DNA from: a virus
Length of the DNA stretch: 64,000 bases
Reading direction: 5' to 3' (one strand)
IMG/VR virus record: IMGVR_UViG_3300023278_002223
Coordinates: 1-64,000 of that record
Shown here: positions 34,635 through 60,573 of the stretch, piece after piece
Position numbering within the stretch: position 1 is the first letter of the stretch
Layout: each line of letters begins with the position of its first letter
Notes under the pieces: generated by a model
The model's database searches: none
What the model saw: the letters and a program-made list of their open reading frames with translations, nothing else
Told to the model about the DNA's origin: nothing
Program-made: the position numbers and the translations under genes

Positions 34635-35342
34635 CTACCCCTGTTCTCCGCAGCCCTCGCAACCGCCACATCCGTCCTCGGTCCCACAGCTGGAGCCACA
34701 GGCTCTAGGAGAAGTGTCTAGCTCTCGGATCTCCCTAGTGGCTAGATCGATGAGGTAAACAGAGTCCTGATTGTGACTTAGGGCAGGGATCTGCTCAACA
34801 GGAACGCCCTCAACTAGGCCTCGGATAGTCTTAGAGACCATCTCGTGAGTCACTACGACAGAGATATCATTGCTAGATATCAAGTTGAGAAAGTGGTCAT
34901 TGACTCTTTCGGCAATGTCCCTGTAGCTCTCGCCTCCTGGGAAGGCGTTGCTCCACTTGTTCCCCTGACGATAGGCTGTCTCCACTGGGAAGAACTGGTC
35001 CCACTCGCCTCGCTCTAGGCCCGCCACACAGCCCATATCTCCCTCTTTTAGAGCATCGTGGGTGTGAATGTTCTGAAAGTCAGACTCGATTACGTCAGAG
35101 ACGATAGTGGAGGTCTGCATTGCTCTACCCAGAGGAGAGGAGTAGAACATAAAGTCCTCACCCCCCTCCAGGGAGTCTAGAAGGAAAGAGACCATGACAC
35201 CCATTAGGAATGCCTGCTGGCAGCCCTTGGCTGTTAGGGGTGAATCAAGTCGACCTTGGGCCTTGGAAATTCTGTTCCAGGCGGTTTGACCGTGTCTGCA
35301 CAGGATGATCTTGCCCATCCCTGGCTTGCTCTTAAACTTCAT
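34635..35342 (-). CDS. Histidine phosphatase (phosphoglycerate-mutase superfamily) with Cys-rich tail
   Basis: 235 aa, AGGAG 6 bases before the start. Family core is intact: RHGQTAWN with catalytic His17, LTAKGCQQA, YSSPLGRAMQT, an acid residue in LKEGDMG (about 100) and the second His in VVVTHEMVSK (about 166). It would dephosphorylate a small phosphometabolite or phosphoprotein through a phosphohistidine. The C-terminal 25 residues are unusual, with seven Cys in a Gly-rich tail (CGSSCGTEDGCGGCEGCG) that could bind metal or iron-sulphur. Last gene of the EF-G unit; substrate unknown. Confidence 0.8.
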   Translation of the reverse strand: MKFKSKPGMGKIILCRHGQTAWNRISKAQGRLDSPLTAKGCQQAFLMGVMVSFLLDSLEGGEDFMFYSSPLGRAMQTSTIVSDVIESDFQNIHTHDALKEGDMGCVAGLERGEWDQFFPVETAYRQGNKWSNAFPGGESYRDIAERVNDHFLNLISSNDISVVVTHEMVSKTIRGLVEGVPVEQIPALSHNQDSVYLIDLATREIRELDTSPRACGSSCGTEDGCGGCEGCGEQG

Positions 35343-35372: not shown

Positions 35373-37448
35373 TTACTTATTCTTGGCTTCTTGATCGGCT
35401 TTGTATTCGGCGATCAATTCTTCTTTGATGTCGCCTGGGGCTGCCTTGTAGTTTGCAAGCTCCATGGTGTAGGAGCTCATTCCACGGGTTGCGCTTCGGA
35501 GATCAGTTGAGAATCCAAACATCTCAGCCAGTGGGGTCTCTGCAATAATAACAGCGTCTGTTCCTTGCTGGGTGGTGTCTACTAGAATCCCGCGTCGGGC
35601 CAACATTAGGCCCACCATGTCTCCCTGGAACTCTGAAGGACCAGAGATCTCAACCTTCATGATTGGCTCTAGAATCTGTGGCTTTCCTTTGGAGTAGAAC
35701 TCTCGGAAGCATGCACGAGCGGCTGCCATAAAGGCCATGTCACTTGAGTCTACGGCGTGAGCCTTACCGTCCTGAAGCTCAACTGCTAGCCCATCGATTG
35801 GTGCGCCAACTAGTAGACCTTTAACTACGGCCTGAGCGAAACCCTTCTCAACAGATGGGATGTATTCGCGAGGAACGTTACCACCAGTGACAGTGCTTGT
35901 GAACTCCAGATCTTCTCCTTCAGCGGGGCCCATCTTTCCGATAATCCTACCGAACTGACCTGAGCCACCAGTCTGCTTCTTATGGGTGTAATCGAATTTA
36001 ACTTCGCGGGTCAAAGCCTCGCGGTATGCAACTGTTGGCTTACCAACCTCAACCTCAGCACCAAACTCACGCTTCATGCGCTCGATGTAGACCTCCAAGT
36101 GGAGCTCTCCCATTCCTGAGATTAGGGTGTCACCAGTCTTATCGTCCTGGGCGACCTTGAAGGTTGGGTCTTCTCGTGTGAAGCGACCAAGAGCCTTTGA
36201 AAGGTTGGCCTGCTTCTTACGGTCCACACACTTGATGGATAGCTGAATTACTGGCTCAGGAACGTGCATGGATGTGCAGAGTAGATCGACTCCAGGGGCA
36301 CGGAAGGTGTCACCAGAAGCACAATCGATTCCGAACAGTGCTACAATGTCACCGGCCTCTGCTCTCTCGATGTCTTCCATCTGGTCAGAGTGCATTCTCA
36401 CAAGGCGGCCAATCTTAACTACCTTGCCTGTGCGGGCGTTCTCAATCTGCTCACCCTTGACGAGTGCTCCCTGGTAAACTCGGATGTAGGTAAGCTGTCC
36501 ATACTGTCCGTCCTCAAGCTTGAAGGCGTATGCTAGGGTGTCAGCACTCTCGTCCATTTGGACCTCTTCCCCAGTCTTAGCATCAAGAGCCACGTTGGTA
36601 ACATCGCCCGGTGCAGGGAGGTATCGAGTGACTGCGTCTAGGAGGGGCTGGACCCCTTTGTTTTTGTATGCTGAACCACAGAAGACTGGGCAGAGCTCAA
36701 GAGAGATGATTCCAGCACGGGCTGCACGGTGGATTTGCTCTTCAGTAGCAGCGTCCTCTAGGACGGCCTCCATTAGCTCATCATCGAACATAGAGAGAGT
36801 GTCTAGGAGCTCCTCACGAGCAACCATAGCATCGGCCTCCATGGAAGAGGGGATCTCTTCGATTCGGATGTCCTGACCATTATCACCGTCGAAGTAGTAA
36901 GCCTTCATTGTGACGAGATCTACGAGCCCCTCAAGGTCAAGGCCCAGTCCGATAGGAAGCTGAAACATTGCCGAGTTTAGCCCCAGTTTGTCTTTTAGGT
37001 CAGAGCAGACCTGGATTGGGTCAGCACCAGTGGTGTCGCACTTGTTAACAAAGGCGAGGCGAGGTACGTTGTATCGACGCATCTGACGGTCAACGGTAAT
37101 TGACTGAGACTGAACACCAGCAACACCGCAGAGGACAAGAACAGCGCCATCTAGAACACGAAGAGAGCGCTCAACCTCAACAGTGAAGTCAACGTGCCCT
37201 GGAGTGTCAATGATATTAATAGGGTTCTTACCCCACTCAACGTGGGTGGCCGCTGAGGCGATAGTAATACCACGCTCTCGCTCTAGCTCCATTGAGTCCA
37301 TTGTGGCACCAACGCCATCCTTGCCTCGGACTTCGTGGATGGAGTGAATTCTGTCACAGTAGAATAGAATGCGCTCAGTTAGAGTCGTCTTACCGCTATC
37401 TACGTGGGCCGAAATTCCAATGTTTCTCATATCTGGATTGCTGGGCAT
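35373..37448 (-). CDS. fusA: Translation elongation factor G
   Basis: 691 aa, full length for EF-G, which moves tRNA and mRNA through the ribosome using GTP. All GTPase motifs are intact: P-loop AHVDSGKT (14-21), RGIT switch I (59-62), DTPGH (81-85) and NKCD (135-138). Domains II to V are present: domain IV contains the GGSGQFGRI stretch, and the end has the expected [18 protein letters not shown]. The N-terminus ([37 protein letters not shown]) is of the spd/mitochondrial EF-G1 type from memory. It starts in a TAATG overlap with a 39-aa zinc-knuckle gene. Arg codons are mostly CGN, as in the capsid gene, suggesting strong expression. Phage-encoded EF-G is rare. Confidence 0.95.
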
Positions 37449-37567: not shown

Positions 37568-37573
37568 ACCATT

Positions 37574-37602
37574 ATATTAGCACACAATGTGTAGCGTTTC
37601 AA
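37574..37602 (-). promoter_or_regulatory. Leftward promoter of the EF-G unit
   Basis: On the - strand TTGAAA (37602-37597), 17-base spacer, TAATAT (37579-37574), or TATAAT overlapping at 37576-37571. The spacer ends TTGTGTGC, similar to TTGTGC in the promoter at 41209. AAAAGTTGAAAC is shared by both. Confidence 0.75.
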
Positions 37603-37612
37603 CTTTTATTTT

Positions 37613-37642
37613 AAAAAAGGCCACGCCAATTAAGGCGTGACC
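37613..37642 (-). terminator. Leftward intrinsic terminator
   Basis: On the - strand GGTCACGCC (37642-37634), loop TTAATT, GGCGTGGCC (37627-37619), then TTTTTT. Nine base pairs with one G-T. It separates the sugar block from the EF-G unit. Confidence 0.93.
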
Positions 37643-37673: not shown

Positions 37674-38480
37674 CTATCGTAGTTCTGGGTTTGCATCGAT
37701 CCAGTCTTTAATCATACTAACGCCGACGCCCTTTAGTCCCATCTTCTTAGCAACCTCTGGGGTCACTGACTTGCTTAGCCATACGATTTCCCAACCAACA
37801 GGGTTGAGGAACTGGTCGGCAAGAATTACCTTCTTACCTCTGGCCTCTGATCTATAGAGACAGAGGTTGGCGGACTCATGCCACCATGCAAAGCTAGCGA
37901 CCTCTGTGCAGGAGAATGCTGGGTCATAGCCTCTAAGGTGTTCAACTCCATCTAGGAGAGTGGTTCTTTGGTATCCGAGATAGGAGTCTGGGCCAGTAAA
38001 GAACTCGACCTCCTTCTCAATGTCGAAGTCGAAGTCTACATCGTAGTTCTCTCCGATGATCCTCATGGCCTTATCGACTGCCACCTTCACTCCCTCTGGG
38101 CGGTGCTTGATGGTCTTGGGTCTGACAATAATAGCGTAGTCAGTCTTTAGGGGGACGATGGCGTTTACATGGCGGACGCCTTCTCCAACTGCCTCTACAA
38201 TCTTAGGCGCAGTACCGTCATCCCTAAGAGGCTCGACGTGAACCCAGGCATGCTTCATGAATCCAGGAATAGCCACATTGGACAAATACCCCTCATCTCG
38301 ATGCAGCCCGACATCTCCTGGCTTAATCAGGTACTTCAAAGCATACAAAACTTCGTCCAAATCGACTTTATAGTCATGAGGTGGAGCCCAGGTAACCCAC
38401 GGAAACCCGTTTAGGCTCCTGATGTCTCCAACGAAATCGACGAGTTTTTTCCAAAAGTATTTTTTCAAATCCCTAAACAT
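37674..38480 (-). CDS. Permuted NlpC/P60-like (YiiX-type) cysteine hydrolase
   Basis: 268 aa from ATG 38480, with AAGGGGG 5 bases upstream; the open frame to 38561 overlaps the upstream gene and lacks a site. The layout matches the circularly permuted papain-like fold: LIKPGDVGLHRDEGYLSN, then a candidate catalytic His in GFMKHAWVHVE, and a candidate nucleophile Cys in FSCTEVASFAWW near the C-terminal half. In this permuted family His precedes Cys, which fits. Possible roles are cleavage of amide bonds in peptidoglycan or lipoprotein. Last gene of the surface-sugar block; no signal peptide is visible, so it may act in the cytoplasm. Confidence 0.5.
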   Translation of the reverse strand: MFRDLKKYFWKKLVDFVGDIRSLNGFPWVTWAPPHDYKVDLDEVLYALKYLIKPGDVGLHRDEGYLSNVAIPGFMKHAWVHVEPLRDDGTAPKIVEAVGEGVRHVNAIVPLKTDYAIIVRPKTIKHRPEGVKVAVDKAMRIIGENYDVDFDFDIEKEVEFFTGPDSYLGYQRTTLLDGVEHLRGYDPAFSCTEVASFAWWHESANLCLYRSEARGKKVILADQFLNPVGWEIVWLSKSVTPEVAKKMGLKGVGVSMIKDWIDANPELR

Positions 38481-38491
38481 GTTATCCCCCT

Positions 38492-38896
38492 TCAACGGAG
38501 TGACCATCCCTGGCCCTCTGTCCACTTTAGTGGCTGAATGTGTGAAAGTGTATCGAACCAATTTGTAAATCTAACCGCTTTGTCATCAATGTAGTAGCAG
38601 GCTCTTGGCTTTTCTGCTGTGATTTCATCTATGTACTGAAGTAGTCCGTGACTGTCAAGCCAAGCACTAACAAGCTCAGTCCCAGTAGTCCCATCAACTA
38701 GGGGACGATCAGAGCGAGCCTTGCATGTGTATAGGACAAGCCTGTACTCCCCAGAGAGAGCCTTGATGGCCTCTGCTGAGCCAGGGATGAGGTCGCCCTC
38801 AACGTAACCACCGTTCCAGTCTGTTTGGGCGTGTAGGACTCCATCGAAGTCTATGGCGATGGTCTTTGCTGCCTCTGCGTCGTAATCTCTAGCCAC
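38492..38896 (-). CDS. HAD-superfamily phosphatase
   Basis: 134 aa from a GTG that overlaps the end of the NeuB-like gene by 8 bases. Motif I DFDGVL (Asp16 region), motif II within LVLYTCKAR, and the acidic YIDDKA motif IV are present. It is a compact cap-less HAD enzyme. Within the nonulosonic-acid-type block it is a natural candidate for removing the 9-phosphate that follows the synthase step, though the substrate cannot be told from sequence. Confidence 0.75.
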   Translation of the reverse strand: MARDYDAEAAKTIAIDFDGVLHAQTDWNGGYVEGDLIPGSAEAIKALSGEYRLVLYTCKARSDRPLVDGTTGTELVSAWLDSHGLLQYIDEITAEKPRACYYIDDKAVRFTNWFDTLSHIQPLKWTEGQGWSLR

Positions 38897-39716
38897 CGTA
38901 ATCTCTCTTTTCTAGGAAGTCCTTCTCCCCCTCTGAAATGTCAGACGCTGTCTTTGATTCTAGAACAACACCTTTAACCGAGGACACCATGGCTGCAAAC
39001 TCTTCAGGCAGCAAGGCACATTCGAGGTGGTGAATCTTTAGATCTCTGGACAGAGAGAAGTGTCTCTCGATCATACCAGCCCCATTGAGAGCTGCAACGA
39101 GGGTGGCGTCGTAGCCAACTTCGTGTCCAGAATAGCCGATAGTAACCTTGGGGCTTGAGACCTCTTCGATCATCTTCCTAATGTATCCAGTGTTAGATAG
39201 CCCATCAGGGGTGGGATAGATAGAGACACAGTGAAGAATGTACGCCTCTATGTCCTTCTCCTCAATCCTCCTTAGGGCTTCTATGTAGAAGTCGTGAGTC
39301 TTTCCCCCCATGCTGTACACAAACGGGATGCCAAGCTCTTTACACTTGTCTGAGACCAAATCAAACAGCTCAGACTTGGCTGCATCCATAGAAGCTATCT
39401 TTAGGGCAGAAGGCCCGAAGGGGACAACGAAGTCTAGGGACTCCTTGTCATGGACGGTGGTGCTCCACTCTATGCCAACATCCCTACAGTGGTCAACAAT
39501 CTTCTGCATATCGGCCCTGTCGATCTCTAGAGACTTTCTGTAGTCTGAGAACGGCATATGTCTCCACCTCTTAGAGGGGTCAGTGTAGTATGAGTCCACG
39601 TTCTTAAACTTGAACTTAACCTGCGTTGCACCTGACTTCTTCGCTTCGCTAATCATAGCGCAAAGAATGTTGGTGCTCCCTAAGTGGTTAATTGTACATT
39701 CGCATACGAATTTCAA
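38889..39716 (-). CDS. NeuB-like nonulosonic acid synthase
   Basis: 275 aa from TTG 39716, preferred because GGAGGTGG sits 6 bases upstream and it follows the previous stop by one base; an ATG at 39731 has no site. Sialic-acid-synthase family motifs: MKFVCECTINHLGS (compare IAEIG-NH-G), SGATQVKFKFKNVDSYY, PFGPSALKIASMD, HCVSIYPTP and VTIGYSGHEVGY. These enzymes condense phosphoenolpyruvate with an N-acylated hexosamine to a nine-carbon sugar acid. The usual C-terminal SAF (antifreeze-like) domain is missing, since the family is normally about 340 aa. Neighbouring CMP-sugar synthetase supports the pathway. Confidence 0.8.
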   Translation of the reverse strand: MKFVCECTINHLGSTNILCAMISEAKKSGATQVKFKFKNVDSYYTDPSKRWRHMPFSDYRKSLEIDRADMQKIVDHCRDVGIEWSTTVHDKESLDFVVPFGPSALKIASMDAAKSELFDLVSDKCKELGIPFVYSMGGKTHDFYIEALRRIEEKDIEAYILHCVSIYPTPDGLSNTGYIRKMIEEVSSPKVTIGYSGHEVGYDATLVAALNGAGMIERHFSLSRDLKIHHLECALLPEEFAAMVSSVKGVVLESKTASDISEGEKDFLEKRDYGG

Positions 39717-39717
39717 T

Positions 39718-40365
39718 CTACCACCTCCCATTATCAGACAGAATGTCATCTAGAGGCTTATCCATCATGATCTGACTTCTGATGCTTCTTTCTTTCTCAA
39801 TGATAGTGTAGAACTTGCCCCAGTAAAACCCCAAGAGCTCCTTAGGAACAACAATGGCCCCATCTCTATCCATGGCAATGTAGTCACCGGAGTTAATGGT
39901 AACACCTTCGATTTTAATCTCACAGTCGTACTTCGTCAAAGCCCAATGCCCGATTGCGTCAATGGGGTTGTTGTCTTTTGAGAAAACTGGGAAGCCAATG
40001 TCATCAATTATGTCGGCATCTCTGGTTATGCCATCTGTTAGCATCCCCTGTGCTCCCATCTTCTTGTAGATAAGAGAGGTGATATCTCCAGTATGGGCAA
40101 CCTTGTTGTCATTAGCCTGCAAACACACGATGGGGTTCATGTGGCGGAAATAGTCCTGGTGGTCCCTATAAATGCCCATCCTGATGCGGTCAAGCTCTTC
40201 ATAGTTGGCAATGGTGACTTTCTGTCCATAGGTGGTGAAGGCTGGCCCATGCACGAACTTGCTATAGCCAGCTGTGGGCTTGATGTTGATGTAGAAGTCA
40301 TCAGCTTTTTGGCCAACGATCTTCCTAAGGGCATCGTATGCTGCGCCTAGGTACAGGTGTTTCAT
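39718..40365 (-). CDS. RraA-like aldolase
   Basis: 215 aa. The RraA / 4-hydroxy-4-methyl-2-oxoglutarate aldolase signature is clear at residues about 100-125: MGAQGMLTDGITRDADIIDD then FPVF, including the Gly-rich turn, TDG and RD residues that hold the metal and pyruvyl group. The N-terminal KPTAGYSKFVHGPAFTTYG stretch and GVTINSGDYIAMDRDGAIVVPKE near the end are also family-like. Some members are aldolases, others RNase E inhibitors. In this block an aldolase that supplies or tunes a keto-acid precursor for the sugar is plausible. Stop and start overlaps tie it to genes on both sides. Confidence 0.8.
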   Translation of the reverse strand: MKHLYLGAAYDALRKIVGQKADDFYINIKPTAGYSKFVHGPAFTTYGQKVTIANYEELDRIRMGIYRDHQDYFRHMNPIVCLQANDNKVAHTGDITSLIYKKMGAQGMLTDGITRDADIIDDIGFPVFSKDNNPIDAIGHWALTKYDCEIKIEGVTINSGDYIAMDRDGAIVVPKELLGFYWGKFYTIIEKERSIRSQIMMDKPLDDILSDNGRW

Positions 40366-40502
40366 TGCTTTTCATCCTTAGTAATAAAGTATCCACCAAA
40401 AACCAAAACCAAAGTGAACGCTATTAGACTAACGTTAACTAGTGCAATTAGGCCCGCCCAAACGCTTGCTGCGATAAAGAACCTCTTAATGCTACCCAGC
40501 AT
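40362..40502 (-). CDS. 46-aa membrane protein
   Basis: Translation begins MLGSIKRFFIAASVWAGLIA and continues LVNVSLIAFTLVLVFGGYFI then TKDEKQ: one long or two tight transmembrane helices with a basic N-terminus and charged end. It overlaps the end of the CMP-sugar synthetase gene and its stop overlaps the RraA start (ATGA), so it is embedded in the operon. Possibly anchors a sugar enzyme at the membrane; no family recognised. Confidence 0.6.
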   Translation of the reverse strand: MLGSIKRFFIAASVWAGLIALVNVSLIAFTLVLVFGGYFITKDEKQ

Positions 40503-41169
40503 CTTTCTCTCTTTTCTCAATTATTGCTCTTACAATCTCAAGATCCTCATTGTCATCTACGTCTAATGCCTCGATCTTGTTTACTGGGTATAGAAATGGA
40601 TTGCTACCCACTCTCTTTTTTCCCTTAACGAGGGCCTCTACTGTCACACCATACAGGCCGTGGGTCTCCATCAGCATGGGATCTAAGTCCTGTGAGTTTG
40701 GCAAAACCTCTGGACAGAAGTTGATAGGATTAGCTCTGTCGGACCAGAAGTACTCCTTCACATTGTTGATAGTGAAGAATGAATCAAAGTTTCCGAAGTT
40801 TTTAAAGGCCCTAATGGCCTTGTCCATAGTCTTGGATGTTATCAGTGGGGAAGTGGCAAAGGTTTGACAGATAAGGTCTACGTCCTCTACGGAGTGTAGA
40901 GCCCAGATCAAGAGATCATTGGCGTTGCAGGAGTTGCTGGCCAGGGCTTGCGGCCTGTCGATGATCCTAAGACCCTTGTTAATGAGGTCTGATACATCGG
41001 CCTTAATTGCCTCACACTCAGTGTCCAGGTAGACAAAGTCCACCTCTTTGCATTTAAGAGACTTCTCACAAGCCCTGTAGACAAGAGACTTTCCGTTGAT
41101 GCGGATAAGGTTCTTGCCTAAGACTCTCTCGGAAGTCCCCTTGGCTGGGATTACTAGTGCTGTTCTCAT
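40492..41169 (-). CDS. CMP-nonulosonate synthetase (NeuA-like cytidylyltransferase)
   Basis: 225 aa with GGAGA before the start. N-terminal nucleotide-binding signature LVIPAKGTSERVLGKNLIRINGKSLV matches the cytidylyltransferase consensus (PAKG-S-R--GKN), then VDFVYLDTECEAIKAD, an FATSPLITSKTMDKAIRAF strand-helix and a final KIEALDVDDNEDLEIVRAII (Mg-binding Asp pair). It would activate the nine-carbon sugar as CMP-sugar. It is the first gene behind a good leftward promoter at 41209. Confidence 0.85.
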   Translation of the reverse strand: MRTALVIPAKGTSERVLGKNLIRINGKSLVYRACEKSLKCKEVDFVYLDTECEAIKADVSDLINKGLRIIDRPQALASNSCNANDLLIWALHSVEDVDLICQTFATSPLITSKTMDKAIRAFKNFGNFDSFFTINNVKEYFWSDRANPINFCPEVLPNSQDLDPMLMETHGLYGVTVEALVKGKKRVGSNPFLYPVNKIEALDVDDNEDLEIVRAIIEKREKDAG

Positions 41170-41208
41170 TTGTTGTCTCCGGGGTTCTTAAAGGTTGTAC
41201 TTATAGAT

Positions 41209-41237
41209 ATAATAGCACAAGATGGAGACTGTTTCAA
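41209..41237 (-). promoter_or_regulatory. Leftward promoter of the nonulosonate block
   Basis: On the - strand TTGAAA (41237-41232), 17-base spacer, TATTAT (41214-41209). The sequence AAAAGTTGAAAC plus TTGTGC before the -10 is shared with the EF-G promoter at 37574. It begins just after the stop codon of the upstream gene. Confidence 0.7.
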
Positions 41238-41240
41238 CTT

Positions 41241-42065
41241 TTAATTCAAGTCTTCGTACAGCCAGAGGTCTCTTGGAACTTCTTCGGGGATGTAACTGCC
41301 CTTGCTGCAAATGTTTAGAGAGACACCCTTTGTGGCTAGGTATTCGTTCCAATCGAACATCCCAGAGAGGGAAAGAGCCGACTCTCCTTGGAATAGTTGC
41401 CCAGCAGCCCCCTGTCTTGCCAGAAGCTCACTGTCATTTCCGTCATAGAAGTGGTCGATCTTGTCTGTGTGGCCAAAGTCAGCAGGATAAAGGTCTACCC
41501 CAATGAGGTTTATAGACTTTGCGCCAGCATGTAAGGCTGTGAACAAAACGGTTTCTTTGATCGTACCCGGACCCCATGGCTTAACGATAGGCTGTGCATC
41601 TAGAGTCCAGTCATCGTGATTCCTGGTAACACAGAGGCATCTCTCTTGCTTGCCTGGGTCACTAATTCTAAAGAATAGGCTTGGGTTGGTGTCTCCCCAC
41701 AAGCCGCCCTTCATGGACTCTAAGGACTGACCTGCGGACCCCACGGATGTCACACCTCTGAGGTTATATGGTGTAAAGTTGTTACAATTGAAGAAGTGGA
41801 TGTCCACTCTTGGATGCATTGCAGCGAAAGCCTGCTTGATTGTGAATACGACCTTGCCGTCTAGCTTTTCAGACAAGTACCCTGAAGGGAAGTCAGACAG
41901 GGATGGGCCGCATGACACAACATAGATGTCCTCGCCCTCATACATGCCCCTGAGAAGAGCTATTCTGTCCACCTGGCTCTCAATACCTTCAACCATATTG
42001 GAGTACAAGATACCCCTGTCGCTGACATGATACTTAGACCAGTCAAAGTTGACTAGGCTAGCCAC
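41241..42065 (-). CDS. DUF115/GT42-like sugar-acid transferase (candidate)
   Basis: 274 aa from GTG 42065 with GAGGG upstream. The phrase IYVVSCGPSLSDFP is the GxGPSL-type CMP-sugar-binding loop seen in GT42 sialyltransferases and in DUF115/Maf-type proteins. Further family-like segments are ADFGHTDKIDHFYDG, AGAKSINLIGVDLYPADFGH and WNEYLATKGVSLNICSKGSYIPE, as in the Y--D...HF tail of those enzymes. It most likely transfers the CMP-activated sugar to an acceptor (virion protein, lipopolysaccharide or host surface). The exact family is not certain. Confidence 0.6.
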   Translation of the reverse strand: MASLVNFDWSKYHVSDRGILYSNMVEGIESQVDRIALLRGMYEGEDIYVVSCGPSLSDFPSGYLSEKLDGKVVFTIKQAFAAMHPRVDIHFFNCNNFTPYNLRGVTSVGSAGQSLESMKGGLWGDTNPSLFFRISDPGKQERCLCVTRNHDDWTLDAQPIVKPWGPGTIKETVLFTALHAGAKSINLIGVDLYPADFGHTDKIDHFYDGNDSELLARQGAAGQLFQGESALSLSGMFDWNEYLATKGVSLNICSKGSYIPEEVPRDLWLYEDLN

Positions 42066-42873
42066 TGGAGTCCCTCGCTTCTTCTGCCAACCTGCGCCTC
42101 TCGGCCCACGGAGCGAAATTATCAGTGTTCATGAAGTGTAGAAGAGGCACATTCTTTAGTAGATAGATTCTTCCGAAACCAGCATCCCTAAAGCCCTCAC
42201 AGATACTAACGTGCTCTACGTCAGTCTCCTGGTGTTTGCTAGAAGAGGAGAACCTTAGACCGTCAATAAATGGCTGGGCTTTGTAGGCACACAGACCATT
42301 GAAGGTGGAGTAGACTGGAGCTTCATCTTTTAAGAACTTGAATGGAGTGCATGTCCACCAGATGTCAAGCTCCTCTCCCCTAGTAGCCCACTTATCAAAG
42401 AGCTCCATGTGAGGTCTCTGGATGTCGGCGTGTAAGGAGTATCCAGAAGCCATGTCCGCAAAGCCACCTTCTCCAACAGCCCCTAGGAGCTTGGATAGAG
42501 CGGTTGCCTCCCACACGTAGTCAGCATCGAACCAGACTACATAGTCATAGGAGTCTAGGTCGCTAACCTGATCCATTGCGGCATTCCTAAATGCTGCCAT
42601 TTGGTTGATTCTCTCTTTTGACACAACGCTAGGGAAGTGAACCTTGTCTGTGATTTCAAATGCCGTAAACATTGATCCAAAATTAGATGGCTTCTCCCAC
42701 CCCTCTATGGCCTCTTTGGTGGAGTCCGATGAGTCGTTCTCGTAGAAGGACGCACTGAACTCATACTTGTCTGACAGGGCCTCCATTTGGGCAGTAGCCG
42801 CAACTAGAACCGATGGGAGCATTTTGGCTGAGTCCCTGCAAATCATGCAGAGCAATACTTTTTCTCTAGACAT
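42058..42873 (-). CDS. Glycosyltransferase (CAP59/GT69-like)
   Basis: 271 aa from ATG 42873, with AAGGAGG 4 bases upstream; the frame extends to 42903 but without a site. Matches the CAP59_mtransfer pattern: FYENDSSDSTKEAIEGWEKP, then AAFRNAAMDQVSDLDSYDYVVWFDADYVWE where DAD is the metal-binding DxD, and a later WTCTPFKFL and EHVSICEGFRDAGFGRIYLLKNVPLLHF. Such enzymes add mannose or similar sugars. It overlaps both neighbours by 8 bases. Confidence 0.65.
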   Translation of the reverse strand: MSREKVLLCMICRDSAKMLPSVLVAATAQMEALSDKYEFSASFYENDSSDSTKEAIEGWEKPSNFGSMFTAFEITDKVHFPSVVSKERINQMAAFRNAAMDQVSDLDSYDYVVWFDADYVWEATALSKLLGAVGEGGFADMASGYSLHADIQRPHMELFDKWATRGEELDIWWTCTPFKFLKDEAPVYSTFNGLCAYKAQPFIDGLRFSSSSKHQETDVEHVSICEGFRDAGFGRIYLLKNVPLLHFMNTDNFAPWAERRRLAEEARDSSG

Positions 42874-44998
42874 CGGTCCTCCTTCGGATGATATAACAAA
42901 CACTGTTTGTAAGTTGGTCCAAGTGAAGAGCGGTGTTGCAGTAGTTAGACTTTAAGCCCTCCACGTTAGAATTCTTAACTAGCTGATTGTGGGTGTTAAT
43001 AACGTTGGCGGTGTCTTCGGATAGGGCAAGCATGAGGCTGCTCTCTTTGCCAACCACCTCTCTTCGACACAGAAGCCTAGGGCTACTGATAGTTCTATTA
43101 AGATCCAGTCCCCAGGAGTTTTCAGCCAGGGTAACCAGTGTCATAGATCTAGCCACACCGTTGTTGGAGTTTATATCTTTGTTTATGTCAGAGCCGGAGG
43201 GAACAAATTCTTCACCTCCATATAGAAGTAGGGCCCAGTCGTTGTTTGCATGAGCCCTGGCTTCTTCTAGCGCCAGATTCATGTCTGAAGAATGGACGGT
43301 CCTAACATGGTCTGGGACATCCAGGTTCAAAGAGTCTGTTACTACAATAATCTCTGAAGCGTGAGGGAGAAGGCTGTTTAGGGAGAGATCTAAGCCATCA
43401 TTCCACTCCTCAGCCTGTGTTACGATAAGCCCAGTTAGAGACTGCTCGTCCCAGAGGGTTGGGTCTTTAAGCTCTGCATTTAGAACAACTGCTTCCCACT
43501 TCTTGGCACACAAATCCCAAGTATAATGATCTACGGCTGTTTTTCTGGCAGCATTGGCCAACCTGGAGAGCTCTAGGGAGCCATTCTTAGATAGCAACCT
43601 TGAGAATGTTTTCTCCAGATCTGCTCTTGAGAACAGGGCTCTATTCTGCATTGTTTCACACTCGGTGTACATGGAGGCAACCTTTAGAGGAACCCCTCCT
43701 CCATTTCTATTCTTTTCGTACAGAGAGCTGTAGTCTGTGCAAACGATTGGAACTCCACACGCCTTAGCTTCAGTGGCGGGCATTCCGTCCCCCTCACAAA
43801 TGGAAGCTTGGACGTATAGGTCCATTATGTTGTAAACCTTATTGAACTGCTCGTCATTTAGGCCGTTGGCAGTTGATGGGGTGGCAAGGGCGGGAACTCC
43901 GCAGGCTGGGCAAGACTGATTGCCGAAGCCCCAAACGCTAACCCCGTGGTGGTCGCAGTTCTTGCACTTGTATGAGAACAGAACTCTTTGGTTAACCCCA
44001 TACCTATGAATTGATTCTGGGATGTCGAATCCAACATCTGGAATTCCAGTATGAAGAAGAAGCCTAGTGTTCTCTGCATTCTTTGGATCGTTAACGCAGA
44101 AGTTGGCATAGGTTTCGATTAGTCTTGTAAAGAGCTTTCTTGGCTGGTTTCTCATGACTGTGCCAATAATCTTAATACCTGGGTGGATACCCATAGAAGC
44201 CTTTACCTCGGCTTTGTCTAGGGGCTTATACACATCGGTGTCCACTCCGGCCTGACAGACCATTGGTACGTCGATTTCTGGAATGCTGTGCCTCTTTGCC
44301 AGCTCGGTTCTTGATTGGTCCTCAATGACCTTTTTGCCAAAGTGAGAATAGGACATGACCGTATCGACCTCTGAGTATGAACCTAGCCAACTCCACTGCT
44401 GTGGATAGCTGTCAACACAGGCCATCCACACAATGTGAGCCCTCTTCGCGGCTGGTGTCTCAAGAACAAACTTGTCCATCCACCAGTCCCTGTGCATGAG
44501 GATGACGTGTGGTCTGACTTCCTCTAGAACTGCGTCTACTTTAAACTTGCCGAACTGATTGTCCTTGTATTCTGCCTGATACGCCCTGTTCTCTTCGTCA
44601 TTGTCTGGCATGTTGTGGAAGTATGTCCACTCGATTTCAGCCGCCTTCTTCTCTCTTCGAGGGGACTGACCGTAGGCACCTAGCTCAAAGCAGCTAATGT
44701 TTGGGTTCTTGTTTAGCCTCTTGAGGACGTTGTTCATATATGTGCCGAAGCCAGTATGGAGATAGGAGGCTTCTGATATGAATAGGACTCGAAGCTTCTC
44801 CTCCGTGCCATTAACCCCGTTGGCGTGAACACCCTCTGCGATCATCTTGTCCAGAGTCTCGATATCATCAAGACTTGGGTCAAATGTCGCTCCCATGATG
44901 TTGTGTGGGATTTGAAGCCCAGACAGCAAAGATGAGCCGTCCACCTTTTTGATAGAGGGCTTGTTCTTCTTCTTCTTGTTGTTTCTTTTCTTTGACAT
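42866..44998 (-). CDS. GT4-type glycosyltransferase with zinc-ribbon insert and C-terminal domain
   Basis: 710 aa. After a Lys/Arg-rich start (SKKRNNKKKKNK) comes a GT-B fold: LRVLFISEASYLHTGFGTYMNNVLKRL (N-terminal domain), and SICEGDGMPATEAKACGVPIVCTD, the E-x7-E donor-phosphate motif of GT4, near residue 410. Between the two lies a four-cysteine zinc ribbon (CKNCDHHGVSVWGF...CPACG, about residues 340-370), which is unusual for this family. Beyond about residue 520 a second region (SLTGLIVTQAEEWNDGLDLSLNSLLPHASEIIVVTDS) resembles the start of a GT2-type domain but seems incomplete. Presumably builds a surface glycan with the neighbouring enzymes. Confidence 0.7.
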   Translation of the reverse strand: MSKKRNNKKKKNKPSIKKVDGSSLLSGLQIPHNIMGATFDPSLDDIETLDKMIAEGVHANGVNGTEEKLRVLFISEASYLHTGFGTYMNNVLKRLNKNPNISCFELGAYGQSPRREKKAAEIEWTYFHNMPDNDEENRAYQAEYKDNQFGKFKVDAVLEEVRPHVILMHRDWWMDKFVLETPAAKRAHIVWMACVDSYPQQWSWLGSYSEVDTVMSYSHFGKKVIEDQSRTELAKRHSIPEIDVPMVCQAGVDTDVYKPLDKAEVKASMGIHPGIKIIGTVMRNQPRKLFTRLIETYANFCVNDPKNAENTRLLLHTGIPDVGFDIPESIHRYGVNQRVLFSYKCKNCDHHGVSVWGFGNQSCPACGVPALATPSTANGLNDEQFNKVYNIMDLYVQASICEGDGMPATEAKACGVPIVCTDYSSLYEKNRNGGGVPLKVASMYTECETMQNRALFSRADLEKTFSRLLSKNGSLELSRLANAARKTAVDHYTWDLCAKKWEAVVLNAELKDPTLWDEQSLTGLIVTQAEEWNDGLDLSLNSLLPHASEIIVVTDSLNLDVPDHVRTVHSSDMNLALEEARAHANNDWALLLYGGEEFVPSGSDINKDINSNNGVARSMTLVTLAENSWGLDLNRTISSPRLLCRREVVGKESSLMLALSEDTANVINTHNQLVKNSNVEGLKSNYCNTALHLDQLTNSVCYIIRRRTDV

Positions 44999-49887: not shown

Positions 49888-50105
49888 TAGATCCACATTC
49901 CTTGGTTAAGTGATCTTTTGAATGTAAGCTGTGTTTCGTAGGCTTCTTGAAAGGTCTCAAAGTTCCCTAGGAACTCCCCATTGTATGTGGACGCCCACCT
50001 GTTTCTACCGAGCCTATCGTCGGTAAGGTTTAGGATTCCTTTTACCTTCATGATCTGTGGGTGCCTGACATAGTAGATGTCAGCCCTAAAATCTGGGTTA
50101 AACAT
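49887..50105 (-). CDS. Hypothetical 72-aa protein
   Basis: Start ATG 50105 overlaps the upstream stop (ATGTTTAA); the frame extends to 50156. Sequence begins MFNPDFRADIYYVRHPQIMK, then RWASTYNGEFLGNFETFQEAYETQL. One alpha/beta domain of ordinary composition. No motif. Tight overlaps on both sides support a real gene. Confidence 0.45.
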   Translation of the reverse strand: MFNPDFRADIYYVRHPQIMKVKGILNLTDDRLGRNRWASTYNGEFLGNFETFQEAYETQLTFKRSLNQGMWI

Positions 50106-50700
50106 TTTTATTAATCTTTCTAGAAATAAGTGCCCATTTATCGTTTTCGTTCCCATAAACCCAGTTGTTGTCGCCCAAATATGAGCCTTCTGGGTATTCG
50201 CTCCTTAAGATGTCGTCCTCTCTGAGGTCGTCACCTTGCCATATCTCTACAACCACAACGTCTTCGTTGGTGTTGTTGTAGGCCGCATGCTTCTCCATCT
50301 TTCCTACAAACACCTCTTGTCCCTCTTCTAGGGTCAAGTCCTCCCCTTCTAATAGCATAGAAAGGGTTCCTTTTTGAACAGACCAGTGCTCAATTCTATG
50401 TTCATGCTGCTGGTAGGACATGGTGCAGCTTGGTTTTACTGTTAGCTCTTTGATTATGTACCCGTCGCCACTTGCAATGTGTCTGAATGAGCCCCATGCG
50501 CTGTCGACGGACCTCCTGCCCCTACTCCAAACCCACTCGTGTACGAAGTACGCACCCAGGGTAGCTGGAACGTGAATAACCAACCAGGAGACTGTGAACA
50601 ATAGCCCTCCAGTGAGGAGGTAGACGATTGCTGCGCCCATTATTGTTGAAAGCGTCTTCCACGTAATGGCCTTATATAGCCATCTTTTGTATGATGTCAT
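50098..50700 (-). CDS. DUF2061 membrane domain fused to a mannose-6-phosphate-isomerase-type cupin
   Basis: 200 aa, start in TAATG overlap. Residues 1-60 match DUF2061: SYKRWLYKAITWKTLSTIMG, then a second hydrophobic helix and GAYFVHEWVWSRGRR, which is the family's K-ITW-----(T) and HE--W signature; this places it in the inner membrane. Residues about 70-190 are a cupin like the C-terminal domain of type II mannose-6-phosphate isomerase/ManC: SGDGYIIKELTVKPSC, SYQQHEHRIEHWSVQKGTLSML, a second acidic strand and KHAAYNN, supplying the metal ligands His-x-His and His. Thus a membrane-tethered sugar isomerase-like enzyme or sugar-binding protein. I know of no such fusion; sugar substrate unknown. 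Confidence 0.7.
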   Translation of the reverse strand: MTSYKRWLYKAITWKTLSTIMGAAIVYLLTGGLLFTVSWLVIHVPATLGAYFVHEWVWSRGRRSVDSAWGSFRHIASGDGYIIKELTVKPSCTMSYQQHEHRIEHWSVQKGTLSMLLEGEDLTLEEGQEVFVGKMEKHAAYNNTNEDVVVVEIWQGDDLREDDILRSEYPEGSYLGDNNWVYGNENDKWALISRKINKNV

Positions 50701-53031: not shown

Positions 53032-53481
53032 TTAGCCTCTCCACTTCTGCTCAATTAGGGCGACATGCGCCTGAAGGTTCAGAGAACAGATTAGGCCGAC
53101 TAGCGTTGTCACAAGAGCCGTTCCAATTCCACCAGACATTGATGTCAGTGCGGACTTAAGGCTCTCTGGGTCGCTTACGTCAAGACCAGAGAAAGTTCCC
53201 AACAGCATGAGGATAAGCCCAATAATGGTACCCATGAGCCCAAGAGAGGTGCATACCTCTGACGCCCACTTTGTTACCCCCAGGTTTGCCTCTTTACCCC
53301 ATGTCCTTAGGATGTACCCAAGGTGCAGGGTTGCGGCAAAGAGAATACCAAAGATGACCCAGGAGATACCTGTGCTGTCAGCTTGGCTAATAGATGAGCC
53401 CAGCCCTACAACCATAGAGTAGATAAATACAATCAGGGTCACTGAGGCCAGAGACCACCATCTTACCATTAGACTAGCCAT
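53032..53481 (-). CDS. MotA/TolQ/ExbB-like membrane channel protein
   Basis: 149 aa from ATG 53481 inside the end of the upstream gene. Four probable helices: LMVRWWSLASVTLIVFIYSMVV, SWVIFGILFAATLHLGYIL, EVCTSLGLMGTIIGLILMLL and TSMSGGIGTALVTTLVGLICSLNLQ. The last two carry the ExbB/TolQ signatures GL-GT--G and GI--AL-TTL-GL, where the Thr residues line the proton path. It is short for a TolQ (about 230 aa), lacking most of the cytoplasmic part. Paired with the next gene like exbB-exbD. Confidence 0.65.
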   Translation of the reverse strand: MASLMVRWWSLASVTLIVFIYSMVVGLGSSISQADSTGISWVIFGILFAATLHLGYILRTWGKEANLGVTKWASEVCTSLGLMGTIIGLILMLLGTFSGLDVSDPESLKSALTSMSGGIGTALVTTLVGLICSLNLQAHVALIEQKWRG

Positions 53482-53785
53482 TGTTGAACTGTGTTCCCTC
53501 GGTAAGAGCTGCAATCTCTTCTGCCAACTTTTGTGCAGCGATATCTTCTTCGGTAACCTGTGATGCAACGTATGTGAATGATAGGAGTTTTCCTACCCCT
53601 TTGAACTTAGAGCAGTCGATATCGGTTCCTTCGATCTTCACGCTGAAGTGCTGCTGCTTCTTGTCAAAGGATGCGCGAGTTAGCTCTACGCTGTCAACCA
53701 CAATTCCCTTGGAGATGAAACGGTCCTTGCACTGCTGCTCACTTCCGATACAGCTATAAATTGAGTATCCAGTTACCTTAGTCAT
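53474..53785 (-). CDS. Hypothetical protein upstream of ExbB-like gene
   Basis: 103 aa, overlapping the neighbouring genes at both ends. Beta-rich, with SIYSCIGSEQQCKDRF near the start (two Cys) and a helical end (EEDIAAQKLAEEIAALTEG). No signal peptide. Family unknown; conserved order might show whether it belongs to the ExbB/ExbD system. Confidence 0.45.
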   Translation of the reverse strand: MTKVTGYSIYSCIGSEQQCKDRFISKGIVVDSVELTRASFDKKQQHFSVKIEGTDIDCSKFKGVGKLLSFTYVASQVTEEDIAAQKLAEEIAALTEGTQFNNG

Positions 53786-59115: not shown

Positions 59116-59689
59116 CCAACCCTTCTGTAACGTCAAGGTCGTGAAGACCCTGTCTTTTGTTTGTCTTCTTAATAGCGCTATTGTCAGGAGTAAAGAATAC
59201 ATCCTTTTCTGAAATAGGTGTGTCGTCTTTCTTTAAGACTTCCTCTTTCTTAATAGCCACCGCATTGTGAATGTTTCTCATTTTCTCATCATTGGCGTAT
59301 CTGGTCACCAGATACCAAAGCATCTTCTGGAACACCTTCACTGGGTTATTTCCGAAAGTTGGCTCTGGGTAGTTTTTGAACTTCCACTTCTTGGCACCCA
59401 TCATCACAGTCTTGTAATGGCTTTTGATCTTTGGGTTTACAGCAACGTTCTTTCTCCAAAAATACGGAGGGAGGTTGCCAAATATCATTATGCATGACAT
59501 CTCTGCTAGAATGTGTGGAACTCCAAAGTACTGCCCCTGCGTTGTCAGTGATGGGAATAGGCCGCCCTTGGCTCTCTCTAGCTCTTGTCTACGAGAGAAT
59601 ATGGCTTTGCAGCCTGAGCAGTCCCGCTTTGTTGGTTTGATTCCTTTGTAATTTGGGTGCTTTTCACACCTGTTAACAAAGTCGCTCAT
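59096..59689 (-). CDS. Hypothetical zinc-finger-like protein
   Basis: 197 aa. Starts MSDFVNRCEKHPNYKGIKPTK, then DCSGCKAIFSRRQELERAKG: Cys8, His11 and Cys-x2-Cys near 24-27 could form a small zinc finger. The middle (WKFKNYPEPTFGNNPVKVFQKMLWYLV) is aromatic and basic. The C-terminus is acidic and ends GLDDDGST. Position before RecA suggests DNA work, but no family is recognised. Confidence 0.5.
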   Translation of the reverse strand: MSDFVNRCEKHPNYKGIKPTKRDCSGCKAIFSRRQELERAKGGLFPSLTTQGQYFGVPHILAEMSCIMIFGNLPPYFWRKNVAVNPKIKSHYKTVMMGAKKWKFKNYPEPTFGNNPVKVFQKMLWYLVTRYANDEKMRNIHNAVAIKKEEVLKKDDTPISEKDVFFTPDNSAIKKTNKRQGLHDLDVTEGLDDDGST

Positions 59690-60573
59690 TGGTTCCTCTT
59701 TGCTTCTTCCTCAAGAAACGACGCTAAGTCCTTCTTGGGCTTATACTTGGTTCTCTTAGTTCCCTGTCCTGGGACTGACTGTCTGGAGTGGACGAACCTC
59801 CTATGTCCCTCCACTATCCTAATAGCACTGCCAGTTGCCTTTTTAACCAAGTTGGCAACCTCCTTGGCTGTTAGGACATCTTTACCGGGAAGCTCATACA
59901 CACTAAACGAGTCAAGCTTAACTTCTTCCATTATCTCAAGACACATCTCTACGAAGTCATCAACATGAAGGTATGACCTAGTCTGCCCGGCCTCCTTGAA
60001 GACCTCTAGGTTGATCCCAGACCTGCATAAGCCCAAGAACTTGCTAACAATCTGCTTTGACTTCTGTCCAGGACCATAAACGCTGGGCATCCTCACTATT
60101 GCTGAACCCAGCTGAGTCTTCTCGTAGCTAGCTCTAACCATAGTCTCTCCGTAAGACCTGCTTAGATAATAGTCAGACGAAAGGTGAGACCCCTCTATGG
60201 GGCCTGTGGCCCTCTGTGTGCTTCCATAGACCATCCTTGTGATGTTTGTCTCACAGTAGTCTAGACAGCGCCTTAGGCCCTCTATCTGAGTCCTGTATAC
60301 CTGATTGTGGTCTGAGGTGTTTGGGCGTGGCAAGAAGAAGATTGTGCCGACCCCGGTGGGGATGTCGAGGTCGGTCACGTCCGATTTAATAAATTGGAAG
60401 TTGTCTAGGTTGTACATGTCCTCGATGTTAGCGAGGTTGCCCATAGATAGATTGTCCACAACCAAGACACTGTGCCCAATACTGCACAGCTCCCTGCTTA
60501 ACTTAGACCCTGTGAAGCCTGCGCCTCCTACGACGAGCACTTTCTGTTTATTGCCTCCATGACGTTTGACCAT
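59686..60573 (-). CDS. NAD-dependent sugar epimerase/dehydratase-like
   Basis: 295 aa. Rossmann signature KVLVVGGAGFTGSKLSRELCSIGHSVLVVDNLS near the N-terminus. SDR features follow: YGSTQRATG (Ser/Thr of the catalytic triad), and YYLSRSYGETMV, where the usual YxxxK has Arg in the Lys position, then VRMPSVYGPGQKS. It belongs to the extended SDR family that makes sugar nucleotides (for example UDP-glucose epimerase or dTDP sugar synthesis). The Lys-to-Arg change could lower or alter activity. Likely links to the glycosyltransferase block downstream. Confidence 0.7.
   Translation of the reverse strand: MVKRHGGNKQKVLVVGGAGFTGSKLSRELCSIGHSVLVVDNLSMGNLANIEDMYNLDNFQFIKSDVTDLDIPTGVGTIFFLPRPNTSDHNQVYRTQIEGLRRCLDYCETNITRMVYGSTQRATGPIEGSHLSSDYYLSRSYGETMVRASYEKTQLGSAIVRMPSVYGPGQKSKQIVSKFLGLCRSGINLEVFKEAGQTRSYLHVDDFVEMCLEIMEEVKLDSFSVYELPGKDVLTAKEVANLVKKATGSAIRIVEGHRRFVHSRQSVPGQGTKRTKYKPKKDLASFLEEEAKRNQ

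Follow-up and report, generated by a model that had tools for sequence, protein, structure and literature searches.

A run of genes on the minus strand of IMG/VR virus record IMGVR_UViG_3300023278_002223 resembles a pathway for an activated sugar acid, with a NeuB-type synthase, a cytidine monophosphate (CMP)-sugar synthetase and an RraA-like protein at its core. The window that we analysed comprises the first 64,000 bases of this 89,248-base record and belongs to a tailed phage, with genes for a DnaE-type polymerase, primase, helicase, UvsX and tail fibres. The cassette is a tight run of the CMP-sugar synthetase gene, a small open reading frame (ORF), the RraA-like gene, the NeuB gene, a HAD-like gene and the gene for a conserved protein. 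These features, followed by the neighbouring genes of interest, are:

41209–41237, minus strand: promoter-like site, TTGAAA-17-TATTAT, the second hexamer preceded by TG (consensus scan; a consensus match only)
40492–41169, minus strand: CMP-sugar synthetase, CTP_transf_3 (profile match; relatives in two other phages)
40364–40501, minus strand: small ORF of 45 amino acids with a predicted membrane segment (sequence reading)
39718–40365, minus strand: RraA-like protein, predicted class II (metal) pyruvate aldolase (PF03737 and D94-X20-R115-D116)
38889–39749, minus strand: NeuB-type phosphoenolpyruvate (PEP)-condensing synthase without a SAF domain (PF03102, alignment and tree)
38492–38896, minus strand: small HAD-like protein, predicted phosphatase (phrog_1238 and motifs seen by eye)
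37674–38561, likely start ATG 38480, minus strand: conserved protein (51% identical in the related phage L004)
37619–37642, minus strand: terminator-like hairpin closing the unit (sequence scan)
41241–42065, minus strand: DUF115/MptE-like protein, candidate Maf/GT42-like transferase (sub-cut-off profile match and weak fold match)
42058–42903, minus strand: glycosyltransferase, CAP59/GT2-like (profile match; 40% identical in L004)
42866–44998, minus strand: GT4-type glycosyltransferase (profile match; 45% identical in L004)
34635–35342, minus strand: histidine phosphatase, possibly in the pathway (relative directly behind NeuB in L004)

A first-pass annotation of this DNA had described the synthase, synthetase, phosphatase, transferase and aldolase genes as contiguous and as sharing one promoter region. 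The cassette itself is confirmed, with the addition that the span also holds a previously unnamed gene (37674–38480) and the 45-residue ORF (40501–40364), which overlaps the stop of the synthetase gene and the start of the RraA-like gene and which, judged by gene positions, is missing in the two other phages described below. A shared promoter fits the synthetase, RraA-like, NeuB, HAD-like and 37674 genes; it does not fit the DUF115 gene, which is the last in a GT4-GT2-DUF115 run and ends at 41241, upstream of the promoter-like site at 41237–41209. The block containing this site is repeated (41208–41249 and 37573–37614), and the second copy, at 37602–37574, precedes a gene for elongation factor G (EF-G). 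For NeuB, TTG 39716, which follows GGGAGG, is a more probable start codon than ATG 39749. By eye, the 37674–38480 protein resembles YiiX/permuted NlpC-P60 proteins.

The NeuB, RraA-like and CMP-sugar synthetase proteins are where the first-pass annotation had placed them, and all three score above the Pfam cut-offs for their families: NeuB matches PF03102 (E = 3.9e-40; 138.3 bits against a cut-off of 22.1), the RraA-like protein matches PF03737 (1.4e-18; 68 against 24.5 bits), and the synthetase matches PF02348 (9.8e-14; 52.1 against 22.6 bits). We mapped NeuB onto Neisseria meningitidis NeuB. The phage enzyme keeps the PEP- and metal-binding residues E17, K45, T98, K117, S120, S146, Y178, S207, H209, E228 and H230, which correspond to E25, K53, T110, K129, S132, S154, Y186, S213, H215, E234 and H236 of the meningococcal enzyme; most of these, together with Q55 and F112, are known as key residues of that enzyme (PMC6795526). 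The proposal of a linked CMP-ulosonic-acid pathway is thus borne out to the extent that the catalytic residues are intact on alignment. The remaining mapped residues likewise belong to the PEP- and metal-binding sites, and D247 contacts the acceptor.

The acceptor pocket of the phage NeuB is changed: Q55 is replaced by K47, F112 by H100, N184 by S176 and D247 by H241, and none of the three residues that contact N-acetylmannosamine (Q55, F112 and D247) is kept. The product had been called a nine-carbon acid in the first-pass annotation, a description that these changes do not sustain as it was given. We examined the changed positions in an alignment of 41 NeuB proteins, among them the best-scoring matches found in plasmids, in other phages and in a sample of 398 Pseudomonadota genomes. 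Position 47 is lysine in three phage enzymes (those of the window phage and of two further phages, L004 and L051) and glutamine in 38 of the 38 others; position 100 is histidine in the three and otherwise phenylalanine, tryptophan or leucine; and position 241 is histidine in the three and otherwise aspartate, glutamate or asparagine. Among the 41, no enzyme outside these three has K47, H100 or the H240-H241 pair; H240 alone is seen in three more. Four basic residues thus stand where most other NeuB proteins have neutral or acidic ones, which suggests that the acceptor may be anionic (a phosphate or a carboxylate) rather than N-acetylmannosamine.

The three phage enzymes form one clade (support 100/99). 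Its nearest neighbour, at a join that is flagged as a long-branch one (84/97), is a plasmid-borne set of Escherichia coli/Enterobacter NeuB proteins plus one from a genome. Searching with a DNA pattern for Q55K, E-x-x-I-N-H-(21)-V-K-F-K, which requires the exact spacing and the isoleucine, we obtained a single match in 84,980 species genomes and no bacterial NeuB; that match (L037) is not a NeuB. The same pattern matched 20 viral contigs, in which real NeuB proteins were found only in the L004 group and L051; the rest of the matches are unrelated proteins. Sialic acid synthases in other phage records (a Moritella contig, AG-345-L05 and LR756508) fall outside the phage clade and have no RraA or CMP-sugar synthetase relative in the flanks compared by tblastn; the Moritella contig carries its own annotated CMP-sialic acid synthetase.

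As the first-pass annotation had noted, NeuB lacks a SAF domain: the protein ends after the barrel, and PF08666 is absent from it and from the whole virus record. The domain carrying Arg314, which is essential in N-acetylneuraminate synthase, is therefore missing. The further argument that this loss points to a new sugar fails, since loss of SAF is common, several of the NeuB proteins compared and the structure 6ncs being about 270–300 amino acids long and likewise without it. The case for a different sugar lies instead with K47, H100 and H240-H241 and with the conserved RraA partner. These observations also bear on the possibility that the cassette turns a hexosamine made by the host into an ordinary nonulosonic acid (sialic, pseudaminic or legionaminic), with RraA contributing a side activity such as that of a lyase that recycles surplus sugar. 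The first-ranked NCBIfam models, NeuB_NnaB and PseI for the synthase and PseF for the synthetase, agree with such a route. The scores, however, are far under the equivalog cut-offs (114.8 against 399.65 bits for N-acetylneuraminate synthase, TIGR03569; 93 against 340.25 bits for pseudaminic acid synthase, TIGR03586; and 60.1 against 205.7 bits for PseF, TIGR03584, the nearest equivalog of the synthetase), the exchanges at Q55 and D247 and the missing Arg314 domain speak against it, and RraA is kept between the synthetase and NeuB in all three phages. We consider an ordinary nonulosonic acid unlikely.

The RraA-like protein retains the D-X20-R-D motif of class II pyruvate aldolases; the residues in question (D94-X20-R115-D116) are invariant in the three phages. 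In the HMG/CHA aldolase, the corresponding Arg-123/Asp-124 pair is catalytic and metal-binding (PMC5065237). The E. coli namesake of the family, a regulator of RNase E, binds the RNA degradosome (PMC5065237), and membership of the shared Aldolase/RraA family PF03737 would allow the phage protein to be a host-type RNase E regulator that merely sits inside a sugar operon whose route runs without it. We regard this as very improbable: the protein scores far below the equivalog cut-offs of the RNase E regulator models (31 against 136 and 17.6 against 241.25 bits), it is longer than these models (215 residues against 161 positions), and both the motif and the place between the synthetase and NeuB are kept in unrelated phages. 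Among the 398 genomes, 149 encode a NeuB and 156 an RraA-like protein (plasmids were searched too), and no NeuB lay near an RraA-like gene among the matches listed. The neighbours of the best bacterial RraA matches resemble sugar-acid breakdown genes or are otherwise unlike those of sugar biosynthesis.

The CMP-sugar synthetase carries the N-terminal nucleotide motif IPAKGxSxR..xKN in all three phages. The HAD-like protein has no Pfam match; it matches phrog_1238 (1.4e-14) and shows the HAD-like motifs IDFDGV, YTCKAR and KPR..YIDDKAVRF by eye, and the HAD phosphatase of the first-pass annotation is thus a tentative assignment. All three phages have a HAD-like protein and two of them also have a histidine phosphatase, from which we infer a phosphorylated intermediate.

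The conservation of the cassette in other phages is informative in its own right. Phage L004 is a relative of the window phage (polymerase 67% identical), and the same sequence occurs in three more contigs. In L004 the genes run in one direction in the order GT4, GT2, a fusion of an HMGL-like aldolase with KdsB, CMP-sugar synthetase, RraA, NeuB, histidine phosphatase, DUF115 and HAD, again with overlaps between genes in the cassette, and the products are 63% (synthetase), 55% (RraA), 65% (NeuB), 40% (histidine phosphatase) and 38% (DUF115) identical to those of the window phage. Phage L051 is a third lineage, with 33% G+C compared with 48.5% in the window phage; its run comprises synthetase, RraA, NeuB, HAD-like and DUF115-like genes, neighbouring frames of which overlap by about 4 to 7 bases, and identities to the window phage are about 50–53% for the synthetase and 38% for both RraA and NeuB. 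Beyond the cassette L051 carries glycosyltransferases, a second DUF115 gene, an FkbM methyltransferase, a sulfotransferase, NKWYS genes, a terminase and a portal gene. The trio of synthetase, RraA and NeuB therefore occurs in the same order in three tailed-phage lineages, as expected if the linkage proposed in the first-pass annotation is real, and this conservation of order and sequence excludes chance. Among the 29 ORFs of the L051 contig the only matches to the window phage are the trio and one GT4 gene, which indicates that the three genes have been transferred together from one phage to another, unrelated one. One further candidate (L120) was dropped as a chance match to a tail protein.

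Two other genes of the L004 phage group are of note. The fusion at L004 17782–19506, beside the cassette, joins an HMGL-like aldolase to a KdsB-like cytidylyltransferase and so provides another aldolase/CMP-sugar pair, which may serve to make a second ulosonic acid. Near the cassette of this phage, at L122 3357–4985, lies a match to ATP-type PEP carboxykinase (61.9 against 26.5 bits) that might supply NeuB with PEP; it has no relative in the window phage.

The cassette is rare, being found in three virus lineages only in the collections searched, and single-sequence scans of viral and genome collections with NeuB and RraA gave no matches. This rarity would be in keeping with passenger genes, recent imports from bacteria without function in the phage. 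Changes in the synthetase, RraA and NeuB genes nevertheless amount to 0.59–0.66 at the third codon position and 0.23–0.35 at positions 1–2, much like the DNA polymerase; the frames are open; the G+C content of the cassette equals that of the phage (0.477 against 0.485); the searches turned up no close bacterial source; and the trio is shared with an unrelated phage. We find the passenger explanation most improbable and conclude that, as far as sequence can tell, the cassette is a working unit.

The DUF115/GT42-like assignment of the first-pass annotation is a qualified one. The DUF115/MptE-like profile gives 26.4, 25.9, 30.3 and 31.5 bits, all under the cut-off of 34.6 bits; the first of these values is for the window protein, and the last two are for two L051 proteins that match the same family. 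Two structure models were poor (pLDDT 46 and 56), and Foldseek alone gave no significant match for the DUF115 models. For the low-confidence L051 model, the flagellin glycosyltransferase Maf headed the rows (5mu5, Z 7.4), followed by a Pasteurella sialyltransferase (9c08, Z 6.8), and CstII was listed as well; values below the guide of Z 8 serve as a lead. All three are known as users of CMP-nonulosonates, and DUF115/Maf-type and GT42-like transferases are cytosolic.

We consider it probable, with moderate confidence, that these genes form a biosynthesis module, carried by the phage, for a single CMP-activated 3-deoxy-2-ulosonic acid of the sialic acid/3-deoxy-D-manno-octulosonic acid (Kdo) type, and that the module works as follows. 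NeuB would condense PEP with an aldehyde sugar, putatively an anionic one. The RraA-like protein, as a pyruvate-type class II aldolase required for the sugar, would probably supply or trim the acceptor, as its position and family suggest. Dephosphorylation would fall to the HAD-like protein, alone or together with the histidine phosphatase; the synthetase would form the CMP-sugar, and the DUF115 protein, with its candidate Maf/GT42-like fold, may transfer the sugar. The phage thus probably makes its own sugar for decorating its particles or the infected cell; the evasion of defence or re-infection that the first-pass annotation linked to such decoration is a possible benefit. The target would most likely be a virion protein made during infection, or a glycan begun by the neighbouring GT4 and GT2 proteins; we favour a virion protein because DUF115/Maf-type enzymes are cytosolic and because the L051 genes abut packaging genes.

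Decoration of the cell surface is a possible alternative on the question of target, though not on that of chemistry: the sugar would be added to O-antigen, capsule or another glycan of the infected cell and block superinfection. The window phage has GT4, GT2-like, epimerase and mannose-6-phosphate-isomerase-like genes, and L051 adds a sulfotransferase and NKWYS capsule-type genes. Set against these are the cytosolic location of the candidate transferases, the terminase and portal genes next to the L051 cassette, a GT4 gene of the same phage that lies among virion-type genes, and the lack of any recognised flippase, polymerase or other membrane-step gene among the genes scanned. We view a cell-surface target as a real, if minority, prospect.

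Several points weigh against the ulosonic-acid module as proposed. Aspartate D205 of the synthetase is asparagine in L051. The HAD assignment comes from one phage profile and motifs and is a predicted one; the DUF115 similarity is sub-cut-off and its models are poor; and the placement of the sugar on virions or cells is itself something we infer. Neither UDP-N-acetylglucosamine 2-epimerase (PF02350) nor any other gene that would provide a known acceptor turned up in these records, which are possibly incomplete, and we know of no sialic, pseudaminic, legionaminic or Kdo route that includes RraA. A bolder form of the proposal holds that the RraA-like aldolase and the new-pocket NeuB are a carbon-carbon-bond-forming pair, so far phage-only, that makes a 3-deoxy-2-ulosonic acid unknown from cells, which a Maf/GT42-like protein adds to virion proteins; we offer this tentatively and would not expect it to hold in full.

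Further sugar-related and other genes were seen in passing. The window encodes a DUF2061 and mannose-6-phosphate-isomerase cupin protein (50098–50700), an NAD-dependent epimerase (59686–60573) and a protein with a MotA/TolQ/ExbB-like proton-channel domain (53032–53568). Its EF-G (35373–37448; phrog_6880, 7e-113) is full-length with all EF-G domains, has its own promoter-like site (37602–37574) and has no counterpart in the L004 loci compared. Another phage contig, IMGVR_UViG_3300033064_006579 (L117, 3289–7289), carries a CMP-sugar synthetase with, by eye, a PseB-like dehydratase and a PIG-L-like deacetylase, perhaps a separate sugar cassette of pseudaminic type. The GT4 genes of two related phages (L011 15448–18513 and L010 14471–17029) contain in-frame intein-like inserts at two different sites, with Intein_splicing, Hint and LAGLIDADG domains, and L010 may start another near its end. 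The DnaE-like polymerases of L008, L010 and L011 and the DnaB-like helicases of L008 and L010 appear in tblastn as pieces split by about 0.8 to 1.3 kb, adjacent residues being set apart, a pattern consistent with further inteins.

The synthase, cytidylyltransferase, HAD protein and transferase are of known kinds; what is new is the combination with RraA, the pocket and, in what was searched, the phage-only distribution, and searches of the open-access literature returned no account of RraA paired with NeuB or of the cassette described here. A sugar-acid pathway in phages with a key enzyme common to no sampled bacterium would be unexpected. If its product is new, it would add a class of virus-made carbohydrate and assign a function within the RraA-like aldolases, a large family most of whose members have none assigned. 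Glycosylation of proteins or surfaces by phages would then also be open to testing with only a few purified enzymes.

Several known systems come close to the cassette. Like members of the NeuB family (N. meningitidis NeuB (SiaC), Bacillus subtilis SpsE (1vli) and Leptospira 6ncs), the phage synthase has a PEP-condensing TIM barrel in which the residues for PEP and metal are kept; it differs in lacking SAF, in Q55K, F112H and D247H, and in scores that fall far short of the equivalog cut-offs for NeuB and PseI. The plasmid-borne E. coli/Enterobacter cluster (NZ_CP145673 and NZ_CP058198) likewise combines a CTP-transferase, a phosphatase (of the inositol-monophosphatase type) and a NeuB with histidine at 240, but it has no RraA, glutamine at the Q55 position, glutamate at the D247 position and an extra N-terminal NeuB domain. 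The HMG/CHA aldolase, a class II pyruvate aldolase of RraA fold, shares PF03737, the Arg-Asp pair and the D-X20-R-D spacing with the phage protein, which is well under the equivalog cut-offs and lies beside NeuB, not beside aromatic degradation genes. The phage DUF115 protein has a GPSL motif in common with Maf flagellin glycosyltransferases (DUF115) and GT42 sialyltransferases, which also head the fold matches at values under Z 8; it is below the Pfam cut-off, has a weak model and has a putative CMP-sugar donor. Finally, the Kdo-8-phosphate pathway (KdsA, KdsC and KdsB) follows the same logic of a SAF-less synthase using PEP, a HAD phosphatase and CMP activation; KdsA belongs to another family, whereas the phage synthase is of NeuB type and has an RraA partner.

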